A stretch of 57,784 nt of DNA from positions 86,429 through 144,212 of the forward strand of contig JAFVAL010000050.1 of NCBI GenBank assembly GCA_017480565.1, given 5' to 3'. The translations under genes were made by a program, and so were the position numbers. The number at the start of each line of letters is the position of its first letter. The first letter of the stretch is position 1. Positions 18,389 through 51,118 of this stretch are shown here, in pieces. Under the pieces are notes generated by a model. That model made no database searches and was not told the DNA's origin. It worked only from the letters and a program-made list of their open reading frames with translations. The DNA is from Lachnospiraceae bacterium (GTDB lineage: Bacteria > Bacillota > Clostridia > Lachnospirales > Lachnospiraceae).

Positions 18389-18416
18389 ATGAATGAAAAG
18401 AATGATGAGGTACTCT

Positions 18417-19517
18417 ATGGAAGAAATGAATCATACGATCACCATCTATCAGGATGATGCACCGATCTATGATATCTATATACGCGAGGATCTCCATGAC
18501 CTTGCAAATGCGTTATATGGCCTTAAAATCGAAAATAGGAAGCTTTTTATCGTGACTGAGTCAACGGTAGCCAGTTACTATTTAGAGGCCTTAAAAGAGG
18601 CTCTGCGGCCTCTGGGAAGATTTGTGCATGCCTATGTCTTTCCTGCTGGAGAGCAGAATAAGAATCTGGATATTGTAAGAGGGATCTATACATTTTTGAT
18701 TGAGCAGAAAGCAGACCGGAATGACGTGATCTTTGCCCTTGGCGGAGGCGTGACCGGAGACCTTGCCGGCTATACGGCTGCAACATATCTTCGCGGGATT
18801 CGGTTTGTGCAGATGCCAACGTCTCTGCTTGCGATGGTGGACAGCAGTATCGGTGGCAAGACCGGTGTGGATTTTGATTCTTATAAAAACATGGTGGGTG
18901 CATTTCATCAACCATCGGCGGTCTACATGAATCTATCATCCCTTCTTACTTTAAACGAACGGCAGTATCTGTCTGGATTTGCCGAGGTGATCAAGCACGG
19001 ACTTTTGTGTGATGCACCTTTGTATGCCTGGATGAAAGAGAACCGGGAAGCACTGCTTGCAAGAGATCTTCCTGTTCTTCAAGAGATGATTACAAGAAGT
19101 TGTCTGGATAAGAAGGCGATCGTCGAGAAAGATCCGAAGGAGAAGGGAGACCGCGCCTTGTTAAATCTCGGTCACACCATCGGTCATGCGGTAGAAAAGT
19201 GCAAAGACTTCACATTGCTGCACGGAGAATGCGTGGCCATTGGCACTGTAGCTGCGGCGTATCTTTCGTGGAAACGCGAGATGATTACAAAAGAGGAGTA
19301 TCTGGAGATTAAGGATACATTTGCAAATTATCATCTGCCGGTCAATGTGTCTGGACTCTCCAGTCAAGAGATTCTATCTGCGTCGAAGTCAGATAAAAAA
19401 ATGGACGGAGGACACGTCAAGTTCATTTTGCTGGAAGAGATTGGTCATGCAGTGATTCGACGTGATGTAGAAGATGCAGAATTGCTTTCGGCAATTGATT
19501 CTATCCTTGTAGAATAG
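18417..19517 (+). CDS. aroB: 3-dehydroquinate synthase
   Basis: Second enzyme of the shikimate pathway: converts DAHP to 3-dehydroquinate using NAD and a divalent metal. The glycine-rich NAD site GGGVTGDLAGYTAATYLRG and the segment VDSSIGGKTGVDF are diagnostic, and metal-ligand segments such as LNLGHTIGHAVE and LLHGECVAIG follow. The frame is open from 18393, but GATGAGG sits 6 bases before the ATG at 18417, giving 366 residues. No other shikimate gene is in the window. Its stop is TAG, showing that amber acts as a stop in this genome. Confidence 0.94.
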   Translation: MEEMNHTITIYQDDAPIYDIYIREDLHDLANALYGLKIENRKLFIVTESTVASYYLEALKEALRPLGRFVHAYVFPAGEQNKNLDIVRGIYTFLIEQKADRNDVIFALGGGVTGDLAGYTAATYLRGIRFVQMPTSLLAMVDSSIGGKTGVDFDSYKNMVGAFHQPSAVYMNLSSLLTLNERQYLSGFAEVIKHGLLCDAPLYAWMKENREALLARDLPVLQEMITRSCLDKKAIVEKDPKEKGDRALLNLGHTIGHAVEKCKDFTLLHGECVAIGTVAAAYLSWKREMITKEEYLEIKDTFANYHLPVNVSGLSSQEILSASKSDKKMDGGHVKFILLEEIGHAVIRRDVEDAELLSAIDSILVE

Positions 19518-45983: not shown

Positions 45984-47168
45984 TTAATGGCGGTTTGCAA
46001 GCTCTGCGGTGATATCTTCCCACGTAAGATCACGCACATTCATTAATACCATGAGATGGTACAAATAATCCGCAATTTCGTACTTTAATTCTTCAGAATC
46101 CGGATTTTTGGCGGCGATCACGATTTCCGTCGATTCTTCACCGCATTTCTTTAAAATCTTATCAATGCCCTGATCAAACAGATAATTGGTATACGACCCT
46201 TCCTTCGGATGCAGTCTCCGCTCCTTGATGGTATTGTAGACTTCCTTTAAGATTTGAAGATCCGAAGGTGCAGCGGGCATATCCCCTGCAATCTCACGGT
46301 AAAAACAGCTGCGATTTCCTGTGTGGCACGCTGCGCCGACCTGCTCGACCTTTGCAAGTAAGGTGTCGTTATCACAATCGATAGAAAGCGATTTCAGATA
46401 CTGAAAATGTCCGCTGGTCTCCCCTTTGACCCAAAGAGACTGACGGCTGCGGCTAAAGTATGTCATGCGTCCCGTGGCAAGCGTCTTCTCAAATGCCTCC
46501 CGGTTCATCCAGGCCATCATCAGCACTTCGTCATTTTTCACATCTTGCACGATGCAAGGGATAAGGCCTGCGTCGTTACACTTGCAATCATCAAATGGTA
46601 TCGCAGTGCGAAATGCATCCGTACAGATGTGAAGATTTTCAAGCTTTTCTCTGTGATCCGGCGTGCCGGGAACGATGACCTTCCCTTGGTAGTTTGTAAG
46701 AAGAGCTGTCAAAACCTGATCAAGATGTGGCTTCATCAACAAAACGGGCGGATTCTCATGATCATTTAGCCAAAGCATAACCTCAGGCTTTAGAACCACA
46801 GTTTCTTCGGTAAAGGAATAGACAATGGCTTCCTTTCCAAATCTTCCGACAGCCTCCTTTAGAACCTCATCGGCAGGACGATCTTCAAAGCAGATCACGA
46901 CTTCTGAGGCACCTGTATAAAAAGCTTTCTTTACATCTTCAAAACGCTTTACGTAAGCGCTCACCATAGCAGGAATCGGAAGATCCGCTAAGATATGGCG
47001 AACCGCAGTTTCCTGCAGCTTTATCTTTGCCACATCTTTTTCTGAATAAGAAAAGAACAGACGGGAGGCACCCCCTCGAACTTCTTCGAGAGCTGCCAGA
47101 CGCATCTGTTCTTCTGTCTTATCGGTACTGTCAATCAAAGAAACGAGCGAACAGTAGAAATCAGACAT
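45984..47168 (-). CDS. hisI: HisIE bifunctional enzyme with an extra N-terminal HisA/HisF-like domain
   Basis: Two catalytic domains are evident. The first is phosphoribosyl-AMP cyclohydrolase at about residues 189-300 ([35 protein letters not shown]). The second is phosphoribosyl-ATP pyrophosphatase at about 305-394 ([27 protein letters not shown]). They catalyse steps 2 and 3 of histidine synthesis. In addition there are about 188 N-terminal residues. Residues 64-119 there ([19 protein letters not shown], then [18 protein letters not shown] and [14 protein letters not shown]) align with the HisA/HisF half-barrel, but the glycine-rich phosphate loop (VGGGI in HisA) reads VSAYV. The added domain is probably not catalytic. 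Last gene of the his operon. Confidence 0.9.
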
Positions 47169-47191: not shown

Positions 47192-47779
47192 TTATAATGA
47201 TCCTTTCGTCGATAGAACACCTTCGATCCGAGGATCGATTGAAACAGCCATATCCAAAGCTTTGGCAAATGACTTAAACATCGCCTCAATGATATGATGA
47301 TCGTTGTTGCCGCGAAGAACGGTAAAATGCAGATTCATTTCTGCTGCATAGGAAATGGAATAAAAGAATTCGTTGACGAGTTGTGTGTCAAACTCTCCCA
47401 CCATCGGTGCGGTAAATGTGGCATCACTTACATAGTAAGGTCGCCCAGATAGATCGACAGCACAGGCAACCAATGCTTCATCCATCGGCAAGAGGAAATA
47501 GCCATATCGGCGGATGCCTTTTTTATCGCCTAAGGCACTCTTAATAGCCTTGCCGAGCACGATTCCGCAGTCTTCCACGGAATGATGCCCATCGACGTTC
47601 AGATCCCCATGACAGGTAAGGCTCAGATCAAAGAACCCGTGGCGGGAAAAGGCGTCCAGCATGTGGTCAAAGAAACCGATGCCGGTCTCAACGGAAGCAT
47701 TGCCGGAACCGTCGAGTTCCAGAATCACAGAGATATCCGTCTCTTTGGTCTGTCGGGATAACATGGCTCCTCTACTCAT
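47192..47779 (-). CDS. hisB: Imidazoleglycerol-phosphate dehydratase
   Basis: Monofunctional HisB, 195 residues, step 6 of histidine synthesis. Metal-binding motifs are present: [28 protein letters not shown] and the mirrored [29 protein letters not shown] at the end of hisD precedes the ATG at 47779, and the genes overlap by 8 bases. Confidence 0.96.
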
Positions 47780-49076
47780 TTTCCCCCTCCTCAAAACGTA
47801 CGTGAATCGAATTGGCGTGTGCGGTTAAATGTTCAGCATTCGCAAATGCTTGGATATCGTCGGAGGCTGCCCGTAAGGCCTGCTCCGAATAATAGATAAT
47901 GCTGGATTTCTTGATAAAATCATCGACACCGAGGGGCGAGAAAAACTTGGCAGTCCCATTGGTCGGCAAAATGTGATTTGGCCCAGCATAATAATCACCT
48001 AAAGGTTCACTCGAATACGGTCCCAGGAAAATTGCACCGGCATTGCGAATCTTTGTCATCACTTCAAACGGATTGGCCGTCATGATCTCCATGTGCTCGG
48101 AGGCAATTTCATTGACCGTTTCAATCGCATCATCTAATGTCTCGGTAACGAGAATGTACCCATAATTCTCCAAAGATTGGGAAATGATCTCGCTGCGAGA
48201 CAGGGTTGGCACCATGCGGTCGATCTCTTTCGATACTTCCTCAGCAAGTGGCTTACTTGTTGTCACCAAAATCGCGGAAGCGAGCACATCATGCTCCGCC
48301 TGGGAAAGAAGGTCTGCCGCGACATATCTCGGATTGGCGGTTTCATCTGCAAGCACCAGGATCTCGGAAGGCCCTGCGATCGAGTCGATGCTCACATAGC
48401 CATAGACCGCTTTTTTGGCAAGCGCGACGTAGATGTTGCCAGGACCTACGATCTTGTCAACCTTCGGAATGCTGGCAGTCCCGTAGGCAAGCGCAGCGAT
48501 TCCCTGTGCCCCACCGACTTTGAAAATGCGATCTGCCCCGGCTTCTTTGGCAGCAACTAAGGTAACCGCTGGGACTCTTCCATCCTTCCCGGGCGGTGTG
48601 GTCATAATGATCTCATCAACACCGGCCACCTTTGCAGGAAGAATGTTCATCATCACGGAAGATGGATAAGACGCGGTTCCGCCGGGGACATAAACACCAA
48701 CACGCTTAAGCGGTGTGATCTTTTGTCCTAAGATCGTGCCATCTTCGGTGGTCGAGAACCAGCTGTTTCTTTTTTGTAGGCTGTGATAGCTGCGAATGTT
48801 CTCTTTGGATCTTCGCATCACTTCGATCAGTGCAGGGGTGACTTCGCGGTAAGCTTCTTCGATCTCCTCGGACGTCACCTGCACGGTCTCTTTCGTAAGT
48901 TCGACGTGATCAAATTGTCTGGTATAGTCAAATAACGCGATATCGCCTTCTTCTTTGACACGTGCTAGGATCGCAGAAACGCGCTCCGCGTAAGCATCGT
49001 AATGATTCGGGCTGCGCTTTAATAGCGTATTTAATAAATCTTTTCGTGACTGATCGTTTAACGCAACGATTCTCAT
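47772..49076 (-). CDS. hisD: Histidinol dehydrogenase
   Basis: A 434-residue zinc- and NAD-dependent enzyme carrying out the last two oxidations of the pathway. Conserved motifs are GVYVPGGTASYPSSVMMN, VGGAQGIAALAYGT, IVGPGNIYVA, AGPSEILVLAD and SQAEHD. It ends in TAG within the hisB overlap. Family and length are unambiguous. Confidence 0.97.
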   Translation of the reverse strand: MRIVALNDQSRKDLLNTLLKRSPNHYDAYAERVSAILARVKEEGDIALFDYTRQFDHVELTKETVQVTSEEIEEAYREVTPALIEVMRRSKENIRSYHSLQKRNSWFSTTEDGTILGQKITPLKRVGVYVPGGTASYPSSVMMNILPAKVAGVDEIIMTTPPGKDGRVPAVTLVAAKEAGADRIFKVGGAQGIAALAYGTASIPKVDKIVGPGNIYVALAKKAVYGYVSIDSIAGPSEILVLADETANPRYVAADLLSQAEHDVLASAILVTTSKPLAEEVSKEIDRMVPTLSRSEIISQSLENYGYILVTETLDDAIETVNEIASEHMEIMTANPFEVMTKIRNAGAIFLGPYSSEPLGDYYAGPNHILPTNGTAKFFSPLGVDDFIKKSSIIYYSEQALRAASDDIQAFANAEHLTAHANSIHVRFEEGENE

Positions 49077-49096: not shown

Positions 49097-49744
49097 TTAT
49101 GAGTTTTGAAGCAAGACATCCCGCAGTCCCCGGATAATTTCCTCGATGCGGTCATGCTCCATCTTCATACTGACTTCATTGACAACCATGCGTGCCGAAA
49201 GATCACAGATCTCTTCTAACACCATGAGTCCATTTTCCTTTAATGTCGTGCCGGTCTCCACAATATCGACAATGACATCGGCAAGCCCGACGATCGGACC
49301 AAGCTCGACAGAGCCGTTGAGCTTGATGATCTCTACGGTCTGATGCTTTCGGTTGAAGAAATAGTCCTTCGCGATATTCGGATACTTCGTTGCAACACGG
49401 AAGTTTTCACCGCGCGCAACGAGTTCACGGGCGCTATCTGGACCGCAGACACACATCTTACAGGCTCCGATTCCAAGATCCAGCACCTCATACATCCGGC
49501 GTCCTTCTTCTAAAATGGTATCCTTGCCCACGATTCCGATGTCGGCAGCCCCGTACTCGACGTAGGTCGGCACGTCGCTTGCCTTGGCGAGGAAAAACCG
49601 AAGATGTAAATCCTCATTGGTAAAGATTAACTTTCTGGACTTCGGATCCTGCATCTCGGTGCAAGTAATGCCCATCTGTGCGAGAAGTCGCATCGCATTT
49701 TGCGCAAGCCTTCCTTTTGCCAGGGCAAATGTAATCTCTCTCAT
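49097..49744 (-). CDS. hisG: ATP phosphoribosyltransferase catalytic subunit, short form
   Basis: First enzyme of histidine synthesis, 215 residues. It is the short form (HisG_S), which lacks the C-terminal regulatory domain and therefore depends on HisZ for activity and feedback control. The PRPP-binding segment is [20 protein letters not shown]. The ATG overlaps the hisZ stop (ATGA), so its translation is probably coupled to hisZ, which contains a premature stop here. Confidence 0.96.
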
Positions 49745-50976
49745 AGATCTGCCTCCTTTACCGGAAGCGTATGAACCTCATCTGGATTCTCCATCCACAG
49801 GATTTGTGAAAACCCTTGCTTTTTTGCATAGGCAAGATACTCTTCCATCTCTCTGCGGGAGGACTTACGGATCAAGCTTACAAGACGTCCCTCGGATCGA
49901 AGCGCATGGCCATAAGCGATGGCTTCCCTGCGATATGTGGCAGGGTACAAAAGTAACGTTCTCTCCTCGACAGAGATCGTTTCCTCCTGGGAATGCAGTG
50001 CATTTAACAAAGAATCCACAAGGATGGCAAATCCGATCGAAGGCGCTTCTTTGCCAAACTTTGCGATCAGATGATCGTAACGCCCGCCGAGCGCGATCGG
50101 ATCCCCGGTACCATAGGTGTAAGCTTTAAAAATGATGCCGGTATAGTAATCATGTTGACTGAGCAGACCCAGATCAAAGGTCAGATACTGCTGAAAACCG
50201 TAGGAATCCAGCACTTCATACAAATGTGCCAGGCGGGCAACCGCATCCAGCGCACGTTTATTATGCGTACGTGCAACCGCCGCGGAGAGATTCTCTACAT
50301 TGCCAAAGAGCATCGGCAGATCGATCAGGAGATTTTTGACCTCCGGATCCATCACCTTATCGCGCAACAAGATCTCAAGACCCGACATATTTTTTTGCTC
50401 TAGATATGTCTTAAGGAGATCGACTTCCTGGTCGGATAAATCCACTTCCTCAAGCAGTCCGTTAAAGAAGTCCGCATGACCGATCTCCACCTGAAACGCG
50501 GAGAGCCCCGCTTGCTTTAGGCACTCGATGACCATCGCGATCATCTCGGCATCTGCATCCACAGAGGCATCATTGATCAATTCTGCGCCTAACTACGTGA
50601 TCTCCTTCGATCTTCCCTGATACCGCTCCGTATTGACAAAGGTATGCCCTTGATAACAGAGTCGCAGAGGGAAAACCTCATCGGTATAATACTTCGCAAC
50701 GCACCTGGCGATGCTCGGTGTAAAATCAGGCCGAAGCACCAGGGTGTTGCCGTCCCGGTCAAAGAACTTCACCAATTCTCTGGAGGAAACAATCGTCCCC
50801 TCCTGCAAGAATAAATTCAAGTACTCAAAGGAAGGCGTCTCAATATCTTCAAATCCGTACAGTTCCATCACCTTATGCATCCGATGTTCCACCGCACGCT
50901 TAATCGCACAAGCACGGCCATAGACATCACTCACACCGTCAGGGGAATGCAAAAGTTCTTGTTCCATCTGTATCAT
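49741..50976 (-). pseudogene. hisZ: ATP phosphoribosyltransferase regulatory subunit HisZ, interrupted by an in-frame amber codon
   Basis: HisZ is a class II synthetase-like paralogue of HisRS that activates short HisG. The full frame is 411 codons, but codon 128 is TAG (50595-50593). Both sides are in the same frame and read on as normal HisZ: upstream LRPDFTPSIARCVAKYY and ERYQGRSKEIT, then the stop, then LGAELINDASVDADAEMIA. HisZ/HisRS proteins have Gln at this place (the pattern is E-F/I-T/Y-Q-x-G-x-E), so a single C-to-T change of CAG to TAG explains it. Later motifs (QYYTGIIFKAY type, here HDYYTGIIFKAY, and GGRYD) are intact. AAGGAGG precedes the ATG. The stop could be a true mutation, a sequencing error or a read-through site. 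Confidence 0.9.
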
Positions 50977-51060
50977 AATGTACGCCTCCTTCCTTCTCTT
51001 CTTCTATTTCAGCCAAGACACGTTCTTACTTCTACCGGGCGCTTTCGCGCGTTAAAATGT

Positions 51061-51070
51061 TAGCATGCTA
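51061..51070. promoter_or_regulatory. Palindrome in the his leader, candidate operator
   Basis: TAGCATGCTA is a perfect 10-bp palindrome, with partly symmetrical flanks (GTTAGCATGCTACCAAC on the plus strand). It lies roughly 13 to 22 bases into the his transcript, a position suited to a repressor. A TrpR-like HisR regulator of his genes exists in some Firmicutes; I cannot confirm this is its site. Confidence 0.5.
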
Positions 51071-51089
51071 CCAACTGAAATTATTCCAC

Positions 51090-51118
51090 ATTATACAAAT
51101 CTTCTAAAAGAAAGTCAA
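51090..51118 (-). promoter_or_regulatory. Promoter of the his operon
   Basis: TTGACT (51118-51113) and a perfect TATAAT (51095-51090) on the minus strand, 17 bases apart. It lies in the gap after recU and gives a leader of about 105 bases before hisZ. The leader has a GCGC-GAAA-GCGC hairpin but no T-box signature that I can see. Confidence 0.82.

Follow-up and report, generated by a model that had tools for sequence, protein, structure and literature searches.

An in-frame amber codon in the single hisZ gene of a Lachnospiraceae draft genome, most likely an ordinary loss-of-function change or a base error

The window analysed here, a stretch of 57,784 nucleotides that corresponds to positions 86429-144212 of contig C42 in a Lachnospiraceae draft genome (76 contigs totalling 2,781,598 bases, with a completeness of 98.76%), carries on its minus strand a histidine biosynthesis operon. 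The gene for the ATP phosphoribosyltransferase regulatory subunit, hisZ (49741..50976, minus strand), is interrupted there by a stop codon: CTA on the plus strand at 50593-50595 is TAG on the hisZ strand, where it forms codon 128 in a frame of 411 codons, with the flanking residues EIT-stop-LGAEL. A reading made from the sequence only had described hisZ as a single frame broken at this codon, and the sequence and its open reading frames confirm it. Past the TAG the frame stays open for 283 codons to a TGA at 49741-49743, a run whose chance probability is about 6e-7 if stops are as dense (0.049) as in the other two frames on that strand. With the stop read as X, the whole frame scores 310 bits against TIGR00443 (cut-off 271.65) and 250.7 bits against Pfam PF13393 (cut-off 25). 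The N-terminal open piece, of 127 residues (50593..50976, minus strand), matches positions 2-111 and 1-111 of these two profiles, and the C-terminal open piece, of 279 residues from a TTG that would be a possible but poor restart (49741..50580, minus strand), matches positions 118-312 and 119-308. Both halves thus match the same family, in order, and the family's uninterrupted frame is broken by the TAG.

The neighbouring gene is a short-form hisG, as expected beside a hisZ; it is intact, encodes 215 residues (49097..49744, minus strand; TIGR00070, 207.8 bits) and overlaps hisZ in an ATGA at 49744-49741. Beyond it lie intact hisD (47772..49076; TIGR00069, 554.7 bits) and hisB (47192..47794; profile match) and an open hisIE with an N-terminal HisA/HisF-like half (45984..47168; profile matches), all on the minus strand. 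A sigma-A-like promoter, TTGACT-17-TATAAT, can be read directly before hisZ (51090..51118, minus strand), and no leader or T-box in the window exceeds the Rfam gathering score. The ATGA overlap, on which a polar effect of the stop on hisG had been proposed, is real; hisG, however, has a ribosome-binding site of its own, AAAGGAGG (49752..49759, minus strand), seven bases before its ATG, so that polarity from the hisZ stop is probably weaker than first proposed. To judge from this arrangement hisG can probably be translated independently of hisZ; a reduced hisG output is possible, whether because coupling is lost or because transcript is.

Between the promoter and hisZ lies the palindrome-like GTTGGTAGCATGCTAAC (51059..51075, minus strand), a candidate operator. 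A near-identical palindrome precedes hisZ in G001, the one other genome of the same genus that was compared, and similar ones precede hisZ in some relatives. Within its own genome GTTGGTAGCATGCTAAC has one match at up to two mismatches, against two for a reversed control, and it is unlike the common HisR consensus given in excerpts of PMC9413887; any regulatory role for it is a guess.

The assembly holds one hisZ and one hisG (next-best hisG match, E 0.054), with no second hisZ or long-form hisG elsewhere in it. The sequence-only reading had pointed out that an intact hisZ in the same isolate would change the picture, and none was found in the assembly; the other HisZ match, an open frame of 438 residues that is 26% identical, is presumably HisRS and not a second hisZ. 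As to other histidine genes, hisF is intact on contig C49, preceded by an open hisH-like gene (so labelled by reading), and a likely hisA lies at C12:52293-53018 with 61.4 bits to TIGR00007, below the cut-off. Comparably weak TIGR00007 matches occur in many sampled genomes of the family, and a suspected hisA gap was therefore dropped; the weakly matching hisA is possibly of the eukaryote type.

The residue replaced by the stop is a conserved one. At the column of codon 128, 36 other HisZ-like sequences (27 from relatives and nine from named contigs, which were found by HisZ and bear the titles Lachnospiraceae or Lachnoclostridium) have Gln in 31 cases, Glu in four and Val in one. Gln also stands there in all four PDB alignments listed, two of ATP phosphoribosyltransferase regulatory subunits and two of histidyl-tRNA synthetases, so that the claim of a conserved Gln is borne out. 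In HisRS this Gln presumably contacts histidine. None of the 36 relatives has a stop at the column, and the conservation of the stop that would be expected of programmed read-through is thus absent. The same rarity is seen more widely. A survey that covered 397 genomes of the family gave a hisZ match at E 1e-40 in 350 of them, and among the 150 matches listed (at least that many were) an internal stop is found in one, that of the present genome; no other internally split hisZ is among them. Nine other listed matches were flagged for a stop, which in eight falls close to the match end, where the gene itself finishes, and in one (G292) is at the first codon. By title and abstract, no paper was on point for a hisZ nonsense mutation or for histidine auxotrophy in Lachnospiraceae.

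Nor does the second half of hisZ show the decay expected of a pseudogene, which a recent allele need not show either. Measured against 25 outgroups, hisZ breaks one of 47 highly conserved columns after the stop and eight of 47 before it; unique changes number nine after the stop and eight before it in the present genome, and 12 and 13 in G001. These outgroups are the 36 relatives less the test partner (L003), two sequences that at this site nearly duplicate L040 (L038 and L039) and eight rows that are distant or partial (L020, L022 and L024-L029). On alignment evidence of this kind, the undecayed second half would fit a recent change, a base error or continued use. According to the portion of PMC7918605 available, in-frame stops in bacteria are mostly short-lived.

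Does the genome have the means to decode the amber codon? RF1 is present, with a score above cut-off. The search for an amber-suppressor tRNA recovered 50 tRNAs, 49 as Rfam matches over cut-off and one tRNA-Trp from ARAGORN alone, and a CTA anticodon is absent from this incomplete set. Because the GAT (Ile) and GAA (Phe) anticodons are also missing from it, a suppressor tRNA in an assembly gap is possible. ARAGORN was given 25 of 30 tRNA loci and 11 of 14 stretches, those omitted overlapping those given. Two tRNA matches below cut-off were rejected as suppressors, one being an interrupted tRNA-Arg-like sequence and the other having no ARAGORN gene; the former, resembling tRNA-Arg(CCT) at 17.7 bits (C55:251-357, L084), lies next to an intact tRNA-Arg(CCT). 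An array of nine tRNAs, three of them low-scoring in Rfam, resembles those of a prophage or mobile element (C50:88699-90093, L074:6700-8094) and includes no CTA anticodon. The PylS score is 23.4 bits against a cut-off of 178.15, and PylS is below cut-off in 12 of 13 control genomes as well. TAG is not avoided as a stop: the 889,613 bases (32%) of the genome that were scanned contain 686 coding-like frames, and 48 of these end in TAG, a figure that may include the hisZ stop. In the window it ends three of the 49 long open reading frames listed, including hisD (47772-49076) and 18393-19517; the claim that other genes in the window end in TAG is upheld, among the genes that had been named, for hisD.

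Other in-frame stops were sought in the same 32% of the genome, and in 271,189 bases of G001, by a scan with frame competition. This superseded earlier runs, of which one missed hisZ, another returned hisZ among 38 rows and a third, on G001, was noisy; it covers stops and not frameshifts, and its sensitivity is incomplete, the TAG in G001 hisF having been missed. The scan returned 72 coding continuations in the same frame past a stop, 66 of which have a start and a ribosome-binding-like site nearby and are read, like 23 rows in G001, as ordinary gene junctions. Four of the remaining six, judged singly, were also set aside as gene junctions. Kept were hisZ and a Ca/Na antiporter with TAG at codon 28 (C63:16552, L196:16552), which with X at the stop scores 194.4 bits against TIGR00367 (cut-off 179.65). 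In G001, hisZ is open and its HisZ is 59% identical, while hisF (L103:3242-4009, minus strand, C105) has TAG at codon 19, where the present genome has Lys. Two further stops in G001 are a TAG within part of a sugar isomerase gene and a TGA that interrupts a transporter permease (L166:148, L202:5427), the latter putatively metal-transporter-like; three of the five G001 scan rows (L164, L166 minus and L217) were judged antisense-like. The G001 draft is the poorer one, with 340 contigs, 83% completeness and 5% contamination. Since these stops are of mixed type and lie at mixed sites, nonsense changes or errors at scattered places are a better explanation than a change of the code, a leaky amber being a less probable alternative.

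What, then, does the TAG in hisZ represent? The stop is most likely an ordinary loss-of-function change or a base error, and not a new reading of the code. The explanation we favour, with a confidence somewhat better than even, is that a recent single-base nonsense change put the TAG into hisZ, giving an ordinary amber allele. It is based on the in-frame TAG at a conserved column, the single hisZ, the presence of RF1, the failure to find a suppressor and the lack of decay; no means of decoding this premature stop was found, within a recovered tRNA set that is incomplete. The claim that hisZ is disabled by its stop stands as far as the in-frame amber at a mostly-Gln column goes; a base error could account for the TAG as well.

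That second possibility, a base error or a minority variant in the draft consensus, with an intact hisZ in the population sequenced, is the less probable of the two, yet it has to be taken seriously. The genome is a draft in 76 contigs, the second half of hisZ is undecayed, the second TAG of the scanned part is likewise isolated, and the poorer G001 draft contains several in-frame stops; PMC7918605, in the part available, expects a substantial share of in-frame stops in databases to be artefacts. An error is made harder to argue by the site itself, at which no homopolymer or repeat is visible, and by the rarity of convincing in-frame stops, of which the scan gave two where it counted 686 coding-like frames.

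Improbable, in our judgement, is a leaky amber codon, read at a low level by a near-cognate tRNA to give a little full-length HisZ at low dose. The conserved frame past the stop would suit it, and so would the TAGs in the Ca/Na antiporter, in G001 hisF and in the sugar isomerase fragment, which draft errors would explain as well; excerpts of PMC7918605 argue for read-through at many of the in-frame stops of bacteria. Both convincing stops of the scanned part are TAG, but from the codon usage of 31 window genes a nonsense change at random would produce TAG in some 45-50% of cases, so that two out of two is not telling. The stop has no counterpart at its column in the relatives, the RNA that follows it is not unusually folded (z -0.38), and the base at +4 is T, which lowers read-through in E. 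coli, mainly for UAA according to the part of PMC5289835 at hand. RF1 and the absence of a suppressor from the incomplete set of 50 tRNAs also weigh against leakiness. A broader version, in which leaky decoding of UAG lets the genus tolerate amber codons at scattered sites, with hisZ among the low-dose genes and HisG uncoupled from feedback, and with the antiporter and the hisF and isomerase of G001 affected likewise, we consider slightly more doubtful still.

A two-piece HisZ, in which termination at the TAG is followed by a new start at the TTG, 12 bases on, and the N- and C-terminal pieces assemble, is very improbable. The TTG does open 279 codons and both pieces keep their family matches, but there is no ribosome-binding site at a usable distance (a GGAG lies 21 bases from the TTG), the cut falls within a conserved stretch of the core with loss of residues 128-132, and no split hisZ is seen among the 150 matches listed. 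Genome-wide recoding of amber as an amino acid, which the two in-frame TAGs of the scanned part might suggest, is extremely improbable, as had been anticipated, in view of the 48 of 686 frames that end in TAG, the presence of RF1, a PylS score below cut-off and the lack of a CTA tRNA among those found.

If the stop is a recent nonsense allele, as we favour, ribosomes would stop at codon 128, within the HisRS-like core, and the product would be a 127-residue piece without the remainder of the fold. HisG would still be produced, perhaps in smaller amount, from the intact promoter-like sequence and its own ribosome-binding site. Alone it would be slow and without histidine feedback, so that the strain would either be auxotrophic for histidine or synthesize it slowly. 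The stop, the single hisZ of this assembly, the intact neighbours and the failure to find a suppressor are observed, whereas we infer the loss of HisZ function, the hisG output, the effect on growth and the genuineness of the base. For a Roseburia genome, PMC7478625 states that HisG likely requires HisZ. The short-form HisG of Acinetobacter baumannii, in contrast to a dead enzyme, keeps a low rate alone, and short forms are described as histidine-insensitive without HisZ in the sections of PMC10795190 available. The prediction of histidine auxotrophy was on this evidence too strong; given a low HisG rate and no feedback, reduced histidine synthesis that escapes feedback is as open as full auxotrophy.

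Should the stop be real, the strain probably needs the histidine of its neighbours or makes histidine without feedback control, and the case would counsel caution in inferring histidine prototrophy from the presence of genes alone. Should it be an error, it would be a reminder to back isolated stops in draft assemblies with reads. Either way, what is known of the genetic code and of HisZ is unchanged.

Compared with known systems, the present hisZ resembles HisZ as defined by TIGR00443 and PDB entries 3od1 and 1z7m in the content and order of both halves, and differs in having TAG at codon 128, where the 36 aligned relatives have no stop. It also resembles the in-frame stops in conserved bacterial genes described in the available part of PMC7918605, in that the stop is isolated and the frame after it well kept; the worked example there is also a TAG. 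The difference is that the hisZ stop is known here from one genome. The operon order, hisZ-hisG-hisD-hisB-hisIE, may be set beside that of the R. gnavus operon, written hisZGDB(FIE) in excerpts of PMC9413887. The N-terminal half of the present hisIE is weakly HisA/HisF-like (Pfam His_biosynth, 19.2 bits, below cut-off), and frames of about 430 residues with similar weak matches, which may be compared with the (FIE) of R. gnavus, occur in several genomes of the family.
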